A stretch of DNA of 33,152 nucleotides from positions 1 through 33,152 of the forward strand of contig CAMCZJ010000002.1 in NCBI GenBank assembly GCA_945886995.1, given 5' to 3'. This document shows, in pieces, positions 618 to 8,519 of the stretch (within the stretch, counting starts at the first letter, position 1; each line of letters starts with the position of its first letter). This DNA is from Asaia bogorensis (GTDB lineage Bacteria > Pseudomonadota > Alphaproteobacteria > Acetobacterales > Acetobacteraceae). The position numbers and the translations under genes are program-made. The notes beneath the pieces were generated by a model that saw only the letters and a program-made list of their open reading frames with translations, ran no database searches and had not been told where the DNA came from.

Positions 618-3347
618 ATGTTTGCCCGCCTTGCAGCCGCTATTTTCGGCACCTCCAACGACCGCGCCTTGAAGCGCTATCAATCCCGTGTTCCCGCGAT
701 CAATGCGCTGGAACCCCGCCTGCAGGCGCTGTCGGATGAGGCGCTGGCGGGGCAGACCGCGCTGTTCCGCGAAAGGCTGTCCAAGGGCGAAGCCCTGGAC
801 GCGCTGCTGCCGGAAGCCTTCGCGACCGTGCGGGAAGCCGCGCGCCGCGTGCTGGGCCTGCGCCATTTCGATGTGCAGATGATTGGCGGCATGGTGCTGC
901 ATGAAGGCAAGATCGCCGAAATGAAGACCGGCGAAGGCAAGACGCTGGTCGCGACCCTGCCGGTTTACCTGAATGCGCTGCCCGCCAAGGGCGTGCATGT
1001 GGTGACAGTGAATGACTATTTGGCGCAGCGCGATGCCGAATGGATGGGGCGCATCTATCGCTTCCTGGGGCTTTCCGTTGGCGTGATTATGCATGGGCTG
1101 ACGGATGACCAGCGCCAAGCCGCTTATGCCTGCGATGTGACCTATGGCACCAATAATGAATACGGTTTCGATTATCTGCGCGACAATATGAAGTATCGGC
1201 TGGAAGATATGGTCCAGCGCGATTTCGCCTATGCCATTGTGGATGAGGTGGATAGCATCCTGGTGGATGAGGCGCGCACGCCGCTCATCATCAGCGGGCC
1301 GACTGATGACACTTCCGACCTTTACCGCCGCACCGATGAGGTGATGAAGGAGCTGGTGAAGGATAAGGAGACCTTTGAGAAGGACGAAAAGCAGCGCACC
1401 GTGAGCCTGACCGAATTGGGCGGCGAAAGGGTGGAAGAATTGCTGCGCCAATTCGGCCTGCTGACCGAAGGCAATATGTATGACACGGAAAACGTGTCGC
1501 TCGTGCATCATGTGAACCAAGCCTTGCGGGCGCATGCGCTTTTCACGCGCGATGTTGAATACATTGTTCGGCAGGACAAGATTGTGATTATTGATGAATT
1601 CACCGGTCGCATGATGGAAGGCCGGCGCTATTCCGATGGCCTGCATCAGGCGCTGGAAGCCAAGGAACACGTGACAGTCCAGCCGGAGAATCAAACGCTG
1701 GCTTCCATCACCTTCCAGAATTACTTCCGGCTTTACCCGAAGCTTGCCGGCATGACCGGTACGGCGGCGACGGAAGCGGATGAATTTGCTGAAATCTACA
1801 AGCTGGAAGTGGTGGAAATCCCGACCAATGTGCCCGTTGCGCGCCTGGATCAGGATGATGAGGTGTATCGTAACGCCGAAGAAAAATATGAGGCGGTGGC
1901 GAAGCTGATCGAAGAAGCGCGCGGGCGCGGCCAGCCTTGCCTGGTGGGCACCACAAGCATCGAAAAATCGGAACTGATTTCGGCGTTGCTGAAGAAGAAA
2001 AACGTCCCGCACCAAGTGCTGAATGCGCGCTACCATGAACAGGAAGCGGAAATTGTGGCGCAAGCCGGGCGCGCCGGCGCGGTGACAATTGCCACCAATA
2101 TGGCGGGCCGCGGCACGGATATTCAATTGGGTGGTAATCTGGAAATGCTGGCGCGCCAGGAAGCCAATGCTTCCGAAGGGCCGGAATTTGAAACCGCTTT
2201 GGCGCGCCACAAGACCGAAGTTGACGCAGCGCGGCCCATCGTGCGCGAAGCGGGCGGGCTTTTCGTGATTGGCACGGAACGCCATGAAAGCCGGCGTATT
2301 GATAATCAGCTGCGCGGTCGTTCAGGCCGCCAGGGGGACCCCGGTGCTTCGCGCTTCTTCCTTTCCCTGGAAGATGATCTGATGCGTATCTTCGGGTCTG
2401 ACCGGATGGGTGGGATGTTGCAAAAGCTTGGCCTGAAAGAAGGGGAGGCGATTGTCCACCCCTGGATCAACAAGGCCCTGGAACGCGCACAGAAAAAGGT
2501 GGAGGCGCGGAACTTCGACATTCGCAAAAATCTGCTGAAATATGACGACGTGATGAATGACCAGCGCCGGGAAGTTTATGCCCAGCGTCGCGCCTTTATG
2601 GTGGCGAATGAAGTGGCTGAAACCATCACGGAAATGCGTGAGGAAACCATTGCGGATATCGTCGCGCGCGCCATTCCGGAAAACGCCTATCCCGAACAAT
2701 GGGATCTGGAAAAGCTTGACCGCGATGTACAGGAAATTCTGAACCTTGATCTGCCGGTGGCGGATTGGGCGCGGGAAGAAGGCATTGATGATGATGCGGT
2801 GCGCGAACGCCTGATGCAGGCTGCCGCGCAGGCTTATGCGTCTCGTGCGGCCAATGTGGGGCCGGAGATTATGCGACAGATCGAAAAATCCCTGCTGCTG
2901 CAGATTTTCGATCAGTCCTGGAAGGAACATTTGCTGTCCCTTGATCATTTGCGCCAGGGCATCGGGCTGCGCGCCTATGGCCAGCGTGACCCGCTGAATG
3001 AATACAAAAGCGAAGCCTTCCGGCTGTTCAATTCCATGCTGGAAAATCTGCGTGAGCGTGTGACCAGCCTGCTGCTGCGCATTGAAATCCGCCCGGATGC
3101 GCCACCGCCCGCGCCGGAAGGCATTGGCGTGTTTGACATGCGCCACCCGGACCCGACTTTGGCGGGGGCGGAGATGATGGAAGTGGATGGCCCGCCCATC
3201 ACCGCGCCGATCGGCACGGCGGCGCCGCGTTCCTTACCCGCAGCGGTGGACCCGAATGACCCAAGCACTTGGGCGGGCACGCCGCGCAATGCGCCCTGCC
3301 CCTGCGGTAGTGGCAAGAAGTTCAAGGCCTGTCACGGGCGGGTTTAG
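618..3347 (+). CDS. secA: Preprotein translocase subunit SecA
   Basis: Walker A region [15 protein letters not shown]-like [21 protein letters not shown]-terminal SEC-C zinc motif [14 protein letters not shown]. Track starts at TTG 606; ATG 618 has a better spaced GGAGA. Confidence 0.98.
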
Positions 3348-3388: not shown

Positions 3389-3418
3389 TTGACAGACCTT
3401 CCGGCGAACCACTAGCGT
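3389..3418 (+). promoter_or_regulatory. Candidate sigma70-type promoter
   Basis: TTGACA (3389-3394), 18-nt spacer, TAGCGT (3413-3418). The predicted start falls about on the ATG at 3426. The -10 match is weak (3/6). Confidence 0.4.
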
Positions 3419-3425
3419 CTGTTGC

Positions 3426-3521
3426 ATGGATGAAACTTGCCGCCGCATCGCAAACCGATGCCGTCGCTGCTTCTCAGCGGCGGCTTCTCTGGCTGCGTGC
3501 AGACAAGCCCCTCCCCGGTGA
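3426..3521 (+). CDS. Candidate Arg/Cys-rich leader peptide (31 aa)
   Basis: Manual translation: MDETCRRIANRCRRCFSAAASLAACRQAPPR*. Seven Arg codons (CGC CGC, CGA, CGT CGC, AGA, CGG) and four Cys codons. Sits between a promoter-like element and an intrinsic terminator. Confidence 0.4.
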   Translation: MDETCRRIANRCRRCFSAAASLAACRQAPPR

Positions 3522-3578
3522 GGTCCCGAGCGGTCCACGCCTGAGGCGGCATCAGCCCGCATCTTTGAACCCCCGCAG

Positions 3579-3599
3579 CCCCCAGCTTCGGGGGTTTTT
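3579..3599 (+). terminator. Intrinsic terminator / possible attenuator
   Basis: CCCCC-AGCTTC-GGGGG followed by TTTTT. AACCCCC (3568-3574) can alternatively pair with GGGGGTT (3590-3596). Confidence 0.75.
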
Positions 3600-3625
3600 C
3601 TTTGCCCAGATCACAGGAAAACATC

Positions 3626-4174
3626 GTGCTCAACAGCAACGCCGCCCAAGCCGAGTCTTCGCAAACACCTAAAGACGCCGGACACAAAACGCTACGGCGC
3701 GCCACCACCGCTGATGCGGTGACCGTCCGCGAACTGACCCGCGCAGCCTACGCGAAGTGGGTGCCCATCCTCGGGCGGGAGCCGCGACCGATGACCGCCG
3801 ACTACGATGCGGCACTGCGCGAACACCTTATTGACCTGCTGCGCGCGGACGGCGATGCCGTGGCGCTGATCGAAATGGCGCCCACGGCTGACCACCTGCT
3901 AATCGTCAATGTTGCGGTGGTACCCGCCGAGCAGGGCCGGGGCCACGGTCGTGCCCTGATGGCGCATGCGGAGGAAGTCGCCCGATCGCTCAAGCTGAGC
4001 GAGGTGCGGCTCTACACGAACGCGCTCTTTGCCGAGAATATTCGACTCTATGGCCGACTCGGCTACCGGGTGGACCGCGAGGAACAGCACCCGCAGTTCG
4101 GCGTCGCCGTGCATATGAGCAAGCGCCTCGACGCCATAGCCGACGCGCACTCCAACAGCAGGACATCACCATGA
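3626..4174 (+). CDS. GNAT family N-acetyltransferase
   Basis: RRATTADAVTVRELTRAAY...VAVVPAEQGRGHGRALMAHAEEVARS...NIRLYGRLGYR; acetyl-CoA loop Q-G-R-G-H-G-R-A. GTG start at 3626 preceded by AGGAAAA; track uses TTG 3602. Confidence 0.8.
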   Translation: MLNSNAAQAESSQTPKDAGHKTLRRATTADAVTVRELTRAAYAKWVPILGREPRPMTADYDAALREHLIDLLRADGDAVALIEMAPTADHLLIVNVAVVPAEQGRGHGRALMAHAEEVARSLKLSEVRLYTNALFAENIRLYGRLGYRVDREEQHPQFGVAVHMSKRLDAIADAHSNSRTSP

Positions 4175-5148
4175 GCATTCGCATTGGCATTGTCGGGATC
4201 AGCGGTTTTGGCGGTGGTGAGGCGATGCGCCTGGTAGCAAACCACCCGGATTTCGAATTGATCTACGCCGCAGGTGAAGGCAGCGCCGGCAGCCGGTTGG
4301 GGGATCGCTTCCCCGGTGTGCCAGCAAAGCTAGCCGAAATGGTGATCGAGAAATGGGATCCGGGGATGCTACCGAAGCTCGATCTGCTATTCGCCTCGCT
4401 GCCCACGGGCAGTTCGGCTGAAGCGCTGGCGCGTATCCCCAAGGGCGTGAAGATCGTGGATATCGGCGGCGACCATCGCTATGTCAAAGATTGGACTTAC
4501 GGCCTGGCCGATGTCTGGCCAGCGCAGATCGCGGGTCAGAATCGCATTGCCAATCCCGGCTGCTTCCCTGCGGCGACGCTTACCGCGCTGGCGCCACTGC
4601 TGGCCAATAAGCTGATCGAGCCCGGCAACATCGTGATTGACGCCAAGACCGGTATCTCAGGCGCTGGTCGGGGCGGCGGCGACAGCAGATTCGGCTATGC
4701 CGAGACCAACGAGAACCTGGTGCCCTACGGTCTGCTGAAGCACACCCACATGCCTGAAATGGCCAGAACGATTGAAAAGCTAAGCGGCAGCAGCGCGGCC
4801 GGGCTGGTGTTTACGCCACATCTGGTGCCGATGACCCGCGGCATACTCGCGACCATTTACTGCCGAGGCCGCGCTACCACGGACCAGTGCTTGGACGCGG
4901 CGCGGCGCTTCTATGCAGGGCGGGCCTTTGTGCGTGTGACCGACAAGCCACCGCAGACCAAATGGGCTACCGGGTCGAACCTTGCTTTCGTCAGCTACGC
5001 GGCGGACCCAGACCGCAACTTGGTGATCGCAATGGGGGTGGTGGACAATCTTGGGAAAGGAGCAGCCGGCCAAGCGGTGCAGAATGCGAATCTGATCTGT
5101 GGCCTGCCAGAAACTGCGGGGCTGGATGGCGTGCCTGTTTGGCCATGA
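4171..5148 (+). CDS. argC: N-acetyl-gamma-glutamyl-phosphate reductase-like protein
   Basis: IRIGIVGISGFGGGEAMRLVANHP, catalytic NPGCFPAATLTALAPLL, KTGISGAGRGG. ATGA overlap with the GNAT gene. Confidence 0.85.
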   Translation: MSIRIGIVGISGFGGGEAMRLVANHPDFELIYAAGEGSAGSRLGDRFPGVPAKLAEMVIEKWDPGMLPKLDLLFASLPTGSSAEALARIPKGVKIVDIGGDHRYVKDWTYGLADVWPAQIAGQNRIANPGCFPAATLTALAPLLANKLIEPGNIVIDAKTGISGAGRGGGDSRFGYAETNENLVPYGLLKHTHMPEMARTIEKLSGSSAAGLVFTPHLVPMTRGILATIYCRGRATTDQCLDAARRFYAGRAFVRVTDKPPQTKWATGSNLAFVSYAADPDRNLVIAMGVVDNLGKGAAGQAVQNANLICGLPETAGLDGVPVWP

Positions 5149-5414: not shown

Positions 5415-5762
5415 CTAGCCCGCATCGCCCGAAAGGCCAGCAATCATCTGGTCGTTCATTTCGATCAGGAAGGCAAGATCCGGTTCGCTTTTTTCCATTT
5501 CGCGCTGGATGGAACGGCTCAGGCTCAGGATCGAAGCGCGCAAGGCTTGCGGCAATAGATTGGCCGGGTGAACAATGGCCGCTTCCACCGCCAACCACAG
5601 ACGGCGATTATCAGCCACTGCCCGGGCGCGTTCAATGGCATCGCCATTCAAGGCTGACTTCAGGCCGTAATTCACACGACGAAACACATCCGCTTCCTGG
5701 TCACGCTGGCTGCGGGCTTGCTGGGTGGCGCCATAGCGGCGCGTGGCGAGCATCTGGTTCAT
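5415..5762 (-). CDS. flaF: Flagellar biosynthesis regulator FlaF
   Basis: MNQMLATRRYGATQQARSQRDQEADVFRRVNYGLKSAL...LWLAVEAAIVHPANLLPQALRASILSLSRSI; adjacent to flbT. ATG at 5762 preferred over the longer track ORF. Confidence 0.85.
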   Translation of the reverse strand: MNQMLATRRYGATQQARSQRDQEADVFRRVNYGLKSALNGDAIERARAVADNRRLWLAVEAAIVHPANLLPQALRASILSLSRSIQREMEKSEPDLAFLIEMNDQMIAGLSGDAG

Positions 5763-5772
5763 GGCGTTGCCT

Positions 5773-6198
5773 CTATTCCGTTGCGGTGGCGAATTGTGCG
5801 ATGGGGTCAAGGCCCAGCACCACTTCTTCATGCCGCATGACGCGGCGTGCGAATTTCAGTGCCTGATAGCACTGATCTTCCTGGGCCAGCGTAAGCGCGC
5901 GGTCCAGATATTCGCGGGCGATGCCAGAAGTGGTGGCATCCTTGAATTCGACGATGAACCGCTTGGCAAGTTCCAGCCCTGCCATACGTTCTTCGTGATC
6001 GCCGATATAAGCGGTCTGCAAGGCGAAGTAGATGCGCCGGGCCGGGGTATTGGCCATATCGGGCGTCATCAATTGCTTGCCGAACAGGAATCGCGCCTTC
6101 GCGGTCAATTCGATTCGCGCGCGATTGCGAAACCGAATGGGTGCGCCATTGACGATCATCATGTCGCCTTGGCGGAGTTCTAGAACAAGCGTTGACAT
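5773..6198 (-). CDS. flbT: Flagellar biosynthesis repressor FlbT
   Basis: MSTLVLELRQGDMMIVNGAPIRFRNRARIELTAKARFLFGKQLM...ARRIYFALQTAYIGD; FlbT family signature. Confidence 0.9.
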   Translation of the reverse strand: MSTLVLELRQGDMMIVNGAPIRFRNRARIELTAKARFLFGKQLMTPDMANTPARRIYFALQTAYIGDHEERMAGLELAKRFIVEFKDATTSGIAREYLDRALTLAQEDQCYQALKFARRVMRHEEVVLGLDPIAQFATATE

Positions 6199-6260: not shown

Positions 6261-7169
6261 TCAGCGGAAGAGGCTGAGCAGTGACTGTGGCGTCTGGTTC
6301 GCCATGGATAGTGTCTGAAGGCTAAGCTGCTGGCGGGTTTCCAGCCCCTTCATCCGGGCACTTTCCTTCGCCAGATCGGCATCCACCAGCGCGCCAAGGC
6401 CGTCAGCGAGGGCGTCAAGGCGCTTGGAATTGTAATTGATCTGGTTATCCACGATCGCCGCCGAGGAACCAAACCGCCCCAGGGCAGAATTGATCCGCGC
6501 TTCGACCGAAGCGAAGTTAGCGCCGGTGCCAGAAGTGGCGATGCCGCCCTGGATCAAGGCCTGCGCATCAGCGGCGGAGGTTGGAACAGAGATAGCGGCG
6601 GTGCCCGTTATCCCTGCGCCACCAACGATAAGGGCAGCACCATCAGTCGCATTAATCGTATATTCATTGCCCGCTTCGTTGCGAAGACCCGTGATATTGC
6701 CACCGTTAATTGAACCACCCGCACCAATGTTGAGGGTGCCCTGGGTGACCAGCAGGCTGCGGCCATTATACGTGGCATCGGCCACGAAGGACCTAATCTG
6801 ACCAACCAGATCCCGGTACTGGCCTTCATACTGGGTACGCGAGTCTGCGGTGATGGCGCCATCCGCAAGGCGGGTGGCGGTGGTGCGCAGCTGCTGCATG
6901 GTATTGGAAACCTGCGTCAGTGCGGTCAGCGTGGTGGCAAGAATACCACGCGTGCCACCCAGCTGTTCATTCACCGCGGTCACACCGGCCATGTCAGAAC
7001 GGACGGTTTGCGCCACAGAGAACGCGCCCGAGTCATCCTGGGAATCGGAGACACGAAAGCCAGTTGAAACGCGCTTTTGAACGGCGTTCAGCTCCGCGTT
7101 GTTCTGATTCAGGGATTGCAGGGCGAAAACGGCCTGGCGGTTGGTGTTGATTGAATTGAAAATAGACAT
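6261..7169 (-). CDS. Flagellin (fla1)
   Basis: MSIFNSINTNRQAVFALQSLNQNNAELNAVQKRVSTGFRVSDSQDDSGAFSVAQTVRSD... and C-term ALVDADLAKESARMKGLETRQQLSLQTLSMANQTPQSLLSLFR. Confidence 0.95.
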   Translation of the reverse strand: MSIFNSINTNRQAVFALQSLNQNNAELNAVQKRVSTGFRVSDSQDDSGAFSVAQTVRSDMAGVTAVNEQLGGTRGILATTLTALTQVSNTMQQLRTTATRLADGAITADSRTQYEGQYRDLVGQIRSFVADATYNGRSLLVTQGTLNIGAGGSINGGNITGLRNEAGNEYTINATDGAALIVGGAGITGTAAISVPTSAADAQALIQGGIATSGTGANFASVEARINSALGRFGSSAAIVDNQINYNSKRLDALADGLGALVDADLAKESARMKGLETRQQLSLQTLSMANQTPQSLLSLFR

Positions 7170-7579: not shown

Positions 7580-8419
7580 TTACCCCTGGAACAGACGCGT
7601 CAGCACCTGCGGGCCCTGATTGGCCAAGCTCAGGGTCTGCACGCCAAGCTGCTGGCGCGCCTTCAGCGCTTCCAATACGGCGCTTTCCTTGGCCAGATCG
7701 GCATCCACCAGGGCGCCAAGACCGCCTTCCAAGGCATCCGTCTTCTTGGAGTTATACAGCATTTGATTCTCCACGAATTTCATGGAGCTGCCAAACTTGT
7801 TCAGGGCCTCTGAGATTTCGTCGTTAACAAGGTCGAAGGTGCCGCCATTGTTGATCCAGGTCGCCGCAATAGCCGCGCTGGTCGGACCAGTGGCCGGGAG
7901 CGTGAGGAGGGTTGCGCCATCCACCGCCTCAATGGTGAAGGTGCCGCCAACTTCATTGCGGATCGCAACAATATTGCCACCACCAGCAGCGACGCCGGTC
8001 GCAAGTAGGGTGCGGCCATTGTACTTGGCGTCGTCCACGAATTCAGAAACCTGCTGCGACAAAAGGCGATACTGTTCCAGATAGGTGTCGCGCTGGCCCT
8101 GGGTGATCGCGCCATCGGCCAAGCGCGTCAGGGTCGTGCGTACCTGCTTCAAGGTGTCAGACACCATGGAAAGGGCCGCAAAGGTCGTGTCCAGCAAGCC
8201 CTTGACGCCGCCAATCTGTTCATTCGCAGCAGTAACACCGGCAACATCGGACCGAACGGATTGCGCCACGGCATAGGCGCCACCATCATCGCGGGCATCA
8301 GCCACACGAAAGCCGGTGGAAACGCGCTTCTGCGTTGCCGCCATCTGCATATTGGTGTTGTTAAGATTTTGCAGCGCGATCAGCGACTGCATGTTCGTAT
8401 TGATCGAATTCATCGTCAT
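7580..8419 (-). CDS. Flagellin (fla2)
   Basis: MTMNSINTNMQSLIALQNLNNTNMQMAATQKRVSTGFRVADARDDGGAYAVAQSVRSDVAGVTAANEQIGG...; C-term ARQQLGVQTLSLANQGPQVLTRLFQG. ATG at 8419 chosen over the longer track ORF. Confidence 0.95.
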   Translation of the reverse strand: MTMNSINTNMQSLIALQNLNNTNMQMAATQKRVSTGFRVADARDDGGAYAVAQSVRSDVAGVTAANEQIGGVKGLLDTTFAALSMVSDTLKQVRTTLTRLADGAITQGQRDTYLEQYRLLSQQVSEFVDDAKYNGRTLLATGVAAGGGNIVAIRNEVGGTFTIEAVDGATLLTLPATGPTSAAIAATWINNGGTFDLVNDEISEALNKFGSSMKFVENQMLYNSKKTDALEGGLGALVDADLAKESAVLEALKARQQLGVQTLSLANQGPQVLTRLFQG

Positions 8420-8519
8420 CGGAGTTTTTCCGTTCCTACGACGCGGATTCCCGTAAGGGGCCCAACACGCCTTTGGTTGCACCGCATTTTGCGACGTGGA
8501 GACAGTTAAAACCCGAAAA

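Follow-up and report, generated by a model that had tools for sequence, protein, structure and literature searches.

The window analysed here, a 33,152-nt stretch of Asaia bogorensis DNA (contig CAMCZJ010000002.1), contains in order secA (ending at 3347), a promoter, a 31-codon open reading frame (ORF), a terminator, a gene for a GNAT-family acetyltransferase and argC (Table 1). A first-pass annotation of the sequence had interpreted this arrangement as an attenuator in which ribosomes stalling at Arg or Cys codons control the operon. The promoter TTGACA-N18-TAGCGT is present at 3389-3418 as it had described, as are the ORF at 3426-3521 with 7 Arg among its 31 codons, the GTG of the GNAT gene at 3626 and the ATGA overlap of that gene with argC (at 4171). 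The gap from the -10 element to the ATG, given as eight nt, is 7 nt on recount. A terminator reported at 3579-3599 also exists, although its conserved stem (3568-3575/3589-3596) is longer than was described; nucleotides 3577-3596 form an alternative hairpin in the window. Elsewhere in the window, the minus strand carries tandem flagellin-like genes (6261-7169 and 7580-8482), beside which two small ORFs (5415-6198) appear FlaF/FlbT-like by eye.

Table 1. Leader elements and downstream genes, all on the plus strand, in window coordinates.
Feature	Position	Description
Promoter TTGACA-N18-TAGCGT	3389..3418 (+)	TTGACA 3389-3394, 18-nt spacer, TAGCGT 3413-3418; dedicated to leader
Leader peptide ORF, MDETCRRIANRCRRCFSAAASLAACRQAPPR*	3426..3521 (+)	31 codons, 7 Arg; predicted leaderless
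Regulatory Arg-codon run	3456..3467 (+)	CGA TGC CGT CGC (R C R R) in window; RRRR/RRRRR in nearly all relatives
Hairpin HP2 (segments 1:2)	3460..3484 (+)	arms GCCGTCGCTG 3460-3469 / CAGCGGCGGC 3475-3484; 5′ arm is the Arg run
Segment 2, HP2 3′ arm, GCGGCGGCTTC	3477..3487 (+)	5′ side of antiterminator; predicted to pair with 3567-3576 while Arg-run codons occupy the A site
Central structured domain	3491..3563 (+)	between segments 2 and 3; includes GGCTGCG 3491-3497
Intrinsic terminator (segments 3:4)	3568..3600 (+)	AACCCCCG 3568-3575 / CGGGGGTT 3589-3596, then T-tract
GNAT-family acetyltransferase	3626..4174 (+)	Pfam PF00583; GTG start 3626; first gene of controlled operon
argC, N-acetyl-gamma-glutamyl-phosphate reductase	4171..5148 (+)	TIGR01850 equivalog, 286 bits, cut-off 233.6

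The -10 element TAGCGT is weak relative to the σ70 consensus and is absent from the promoter listing. Since only 7 nt separate it from the leader ATG, transcription is predicted to start on or adjoining this codon, giving a leaderless message. The spacing is conserved: 84 of 88 homologous leaders have TTGAC 35-38 nt 5′ of their start codon, 72 of them at exactly 37 nt. In 85 of the 88 distinct leaders an ATG lies 27 or 30 nt ahead of the CGN run and shares its frame; the leaders share descent, so that counts over these 88, or over the 59 sequences considered below, are of non-independent events. Among the three exceptions L136 can use GTG; the ATG is lost in L047, one start-codon defect among the 88, and L088 keeps its in-frame ATG without TTGAC. 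Counted from the ATG to the end of the run, 54 of 59 sequences measure 45 nt and three measure 39 nt, the remaining two being L047, with its defective start, and L098, which has a gap at the end of the run beside the hairpin loop. Insertions and deletions before the end of the run preserve the frame, the L047 start defect excepted, and single-base indels are present after it; length changes of 1 or 2 nt occur just past the run in 11 of 59 leaders. Residues N-terminal to the run vary, as in MSFPLFTVVS-RRRR (L135) versus MLRNRTLCD-RRRRR. This pattern of length and residue variation fits a peptide, of predicted translation, in which the Arg run is what matters.

The segment from 3389 to 3600, comprising promoter, ORF and terminator, is conserved in these 88 leaders. 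They come from Roseomonas-like Acetobacteraceae, Reyranella, Bosea, Methylobacterium and others, and argC or GNAT-argC nearly always follows them immediately. When 59 related genomes were searched at the DNA level, about 20 same-genus genomes contained the segment, with 75-86% nucleotide identity in most copies; the two most divergent copies stand at 71 and 56%. Where contigs cover the downstream genes, these copies precede argC with or without GNAT between, and the upstream gene varies. Most genomes in the genus sample with an argC of the window's kind have a leader match, and most of those lacking this argC have none. A wider search with a covariance model built from the same-genus leaders placed a match upstream of argC for 56 of the 80 named argC relatives (Acetobacteraceae, Reyranella, Bosea, Methylobacterium and others). 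Among 300 family genomes it matched 38, in some cases weakly. No leader was found at 23 of the 80 argC loci, all with their upstream region covered; in such leaderless relatives, among them Bradyrhizobium, Cupriavidus and Kiloniellaceae, the DNA 5′ of argC is different. Many leaderless loci (L045-L111) have in common a short upstream motif resembling TTCGCTCACTCCAGCAGTAGGACACCACC-ATG, with variable DNA 5′ of it. Sampled searches of the class and phylum yielded few extra strong matches, three with argC and one with an argC remnant, and weak matches of about 27 bits (L150, L151 and L154) that have no argC alongside and are probably due to chance. At L152 (1515-1700) a leader is fused to a 3′ fragment of argC, which looks like a remnant of the cassette; the same genome has an intact leader-argC. 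Two leader-argC copies occur in one genome, that of Rhizobiales bacterium 2SD (L077 and L087). The window's own genome gave one significant match only, with no second leader copy.

Given the same-genus identity, the presence in other families and a stall contrast that exceeds that of shuffled sequences (below), conservation of the leader is more than chance. Orthologous loci conserve the ORF together with its start codon, its frame and its Arg run, contrary to the loss of ORF or Arg codons that had been named beforehand as refuting the first-pass reading; conservation operates at the codon level and not only on structure. The segment could in principle be an ordinary secA terminator next to an ORF that is Arg-rich by chance, as secA ends at 3347 in the window and GC-rich DNA gives frequent CGN codons by chance. 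This reading is already contradicted by synteny, several same-genus and many other relatives having the element before argC without secA just upstream, as well as by frame and codon conservation, and its probability is minimal.

The GNAT gene is absent in many relatives, in which argC directly follows the leader. Three genomes have the leader before GNAT and no argC within the stretch covered (L135, 1490-2935; L136, 1505-3187; and L131); the gene after GNAT encodes a LysE-type translocator (PF01810) in L135 and, judged by eye, an EamA-like transporter in L136. The window's draft genome is Roseomonas-like within the Acetobacteraceae, the nearest named relatives of its argC being from Roseomonas metagenome-assembled genomes. 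Since all eight leader-argC genomes tested contain a second, weaker argC-like match, and a TIGR01851 argC scores above cut-off in most same-genus genomes, the gene under the leader appears to be an additional argC. The window's own genome, a draft that is about 90% complete, gave no TIGR01851 match above cut-off. Leader and leaderless copies are interleaved in a poorly resolved argC tree that needs about seven changes. Leader-argC is also plasmid-borne, on pTiCFBP4996 of Agrobacterium leguminum (L155, with the run shortened to two Arg, DRRC) and p546-1 of Roseomonas haemaphysalidis (L156), the leader being unannotated on both, and in Methylobacterium aquaticum, by DNA match only. The interleaved tree and the plasmid copies suggest that the leader-argC cassette has been transferred between genomes.

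Arginine is encoded by 345 of the 352 codons at run positions 1-4 of the 88 leaders, as 157 CGC, 139 CGA and 49 CGT; CGG, AGA and AGG are absent. CGC, CGA and CGU are the codons read by tRNA-Arg(ICG). The usage is only suggestive of a role for this tRNA, since pairing in HP2 also disfavours G at some third positions of the run. The window copy is slightly atypical, with Cys (TGC) at the second run codon, where nearly all relatives have Arg, and without 6 nt near 3528 that most relatives carry. In clade 2 the third base of one run CGA mismatches HP2 (39 of 59 sequences are unpaired at that pair), yet Arg is still kept. Cys often follows the run, yet Phe, Asn or Ser stands there in several homologs, and the run Arg is not replaced. 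Cysteine was therefore rejected as the sensed signal, its positions varying while the CGN run is constant, and arginine is the likely one; of the stalling codons first proposed, codon-level conservation supports Arg, and with it the kind of element, but not Cys. The codons match the product pathway of the downstream enzyme, RRRR or RRRRR preceding a TIGR01850 argC.

HP2 and the terminator show modest covariation, with a joint score above those of 500 of 500 shuffles, and 98.3% of terminator-stem cells are paired across 59 sequences. A first hairpin had been drawn between GCATCG (3444-3449) and CGATGC (3456-3461); both sequences are in place, but the hairpin is specific to the window, its pairing is lost in relatives, and it was rejected as part of the switch. 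In the central domain GGCTGCG has two possible partners, CGCA (3558-3561 region) and CGCAGCC (3574-3580), and another helix shows a clade-level compensatory change (columns 141-144 with 167-170) that may be a single event. A structured cis-regulatory RNA resembling a riboswitch, with arginine or another metabolite perhaps as ligand and an incidental ORF, would account for the central domain being highly conserved in clade 1, for GCTGCG/CGCAGC being invariant and for a leader fold more stable than shuffles (z -2.85). It would not account for a start codon conserved at a near-fixed distance from the promoter, a frame held up to the Arg run and not beyond, variable N-terminal residues with Arg retained where pairing is lost, or a central domain that differs strongly between the two clades, and we regard it as very improbable.

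Folding with a ribosome placed at each codon was predicted for 69 homologs, with RNA exposed from 13 nt past the first base of the A-site codon; offsets of 11 and 15 nt gave a similar picture, shifted by about one codon. The antiterminator considered is formed between the HP2 3′ arm and CCCCCGC. In transcripts ending just short of the terminator 3′ arm, its mean probability with the A site on run codons 1, 2, 3 and 4 was 0.76, 0.94, 0.95 and 0.90, respectively; codon 5, which is Arg in most of clade 2, gave 0.61, and the next codons 0.19, 0.02 and 0; with the A site three or more codons 5′ of the run it was at most 0.06. The window gave 0.94 one codon before the run and 1.0, 1.0, 1.0 and 0.95 at the four run codons. 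Stalling at the regulatory codons is thus predicted to favour the antiterminator before terminator completion only. With the full-length terminator present, the stalled state is still 78-84% terminator at equilibrium (mean 0.78-0.84, run codons 2-4); since the finished terminator wins even then, the switch must act kinetically, and co-transcriptional order matters. The stall-specific contrast was compared with 30 dinucleotide shuffles of the leader body per sequence: for 11 of 14 sequences no shuffle matched it, and for the other three 1, 2 and 4 shuffles did. The model fits part of clade 2 (L054) less well, and the agreement between stall window and Arg codons is partly built in, as the Arg codons themselves form the HP2 5′ arm. 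The extended antiterminator has 94.7% standard pair cells in 59 sequences, mostly invariant, and no covariation was found in these, its arms being nearly invariant and so giving it no covariation support.

The pairing of GGCTGCG with CGCAGCC had earlier been proposed as the antiterminator. Its complementarity and conservation hold, GCTGCG/CGCAGC being invariant in 59 of 59 sequences and part of the RNAalifold consensus, but position-dependent folding did not bear out an Arg-specific role, and it was rejected as an Arg-dependent antiterminator. With HP2 intact it reaches a probability of about 0.6 before terminator completion, independently of a stall at the Arg codons, and it is lost once the terminator is complete. 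A leader peptide working through this pairing, or sensing Cys or general translation rather than Arg, would draw on that invariance and on the frequent Cys after the run; the independence from Arg stalling and the replacement of that Cys argue against it, and we consider it highly unlikely. The HP2 3′ arm with CCCCCGC is the best-supported antiterminator and takes its place.

Very probably, the segment is a ribosome-mediated attenuator of the (GNAT-)argC operon, acting on transcription in response to the level of charged tRNA-Arg. The transcript would begin at or beside the leader AUG. When arginine is sufficient, the ribosome would clear the CGA-CGN-CGN-CGC run, HP2 and then the terminator would form, and transcription would stop. 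When charged tRNA-Arg is scarce, the ribosome would stall as an Arg codon occupies its A site, covering the HP2 5′ arm; the freed 3′ arm GCGGCGGCUUC would pair with GAA-CCCCCGC of the terminator 5′ arm across the central domain, and RNA polymerase would continue into argC. The direct basis for this reading is the sequence, its conservation, frame, codon bias and argC association, and thermodynamic prediction; from these we infer the start site, translation, stalling, termination and the response to arginine. The conservation and codon evidence is strong, and the switch itself is predicted. The agreement between gene product (argC) and sensed amino acid, and the precedent of the leaderless trp attenuator of Sinorhizobium (PMC10117765), were also counted in its favour. 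The first-pass interpretation is supported, with two structural details changed, the first hairpin and the antiterminator.

Rfam gave no match above gathering score, the best being 22 bits against 40, on the opposite strand inside GNAT, and no T-box match in the region. No attenuator of argC or arginine biosynthesis in bacteria was found in the open-licence literature, subscription papers not being excluded; we thus found no Rfam family or paper describing an arginine leader attenuator of this type. Somewhat more probable than not is an undescribed class, an arginine-sensing leaderless attenuator that moves between genomes, plasmids included, with a second argC and reads specifically the charging of the tRNA-Arg that decodes CGU, CGC and CGA. 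The element would fill a gap: in the literature found, leader-peptide attenuation is known for the synthesis genes of other amino acids in bacteria, but not for those of arginine. It would provide a switch testable codon by codon, and with it an extra argC acquired by transfer could respond to arginine in a new host without a host regulator.

Leader-peptide attenuators are known in Proteobacteria for Trp, His, Leu, Ilv, Thr and Phe. The argC leader resembles these in its short ORF with a run of end-product codons, its alternative 1:2, 2:3 and 3:4 hairpins and an intrinsic terminator before the biosynthetic gene, and differs in its Arg codons and its target argC, the large structured domain between segments 2 and 3 and its unrelated sequence. 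One survey (PMC1262725) lists T-boxes in the case of arginine and attenuators in that of other amino acids. The arginine T-boxes, which belong to other bacteria, likewise place RNA-level control under tRNA-Arg charging, but bind the tRNA directly and have no leader ORF. The trpL (rnTrpL) attenuator of Sinorhizobium meliloti is leaderless, its transcript starting at the leader AUG (PMC10117765). Both are alphaproteobacterial attenuators, the AUG start being only predicted for the argC leader, and trpL has Trp codons and trpE where the argC leader has Arg codons and argC. Pausing at consecutive Arg codons alters mRNA folding in orf34, the Salmonella speF leader (PMC6386406), which differs in its target, ornithine decarboxylase rather than arginine synthesis, and in its means, RNase G, Rho and access to the ribosome site rather than an intrinsic terminator. 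The rbfL leader peptide of Staphylococcus aureus senses arginine limitation (PMC13009471), but uses rare AGA/AGG codons and acts on translation initiation, blocking the ribosome site of a biofilm regulator. The uORFC-8-2 motif upstream of cysS in Rhodobacterales has tandem regulatory codons and was proposed as a ribosome-mediated attenuator (PMC8632094); it is, like the argC leader, an alphaproteobacterial upstream ORF, with Cys codons, another gene and another RNA.
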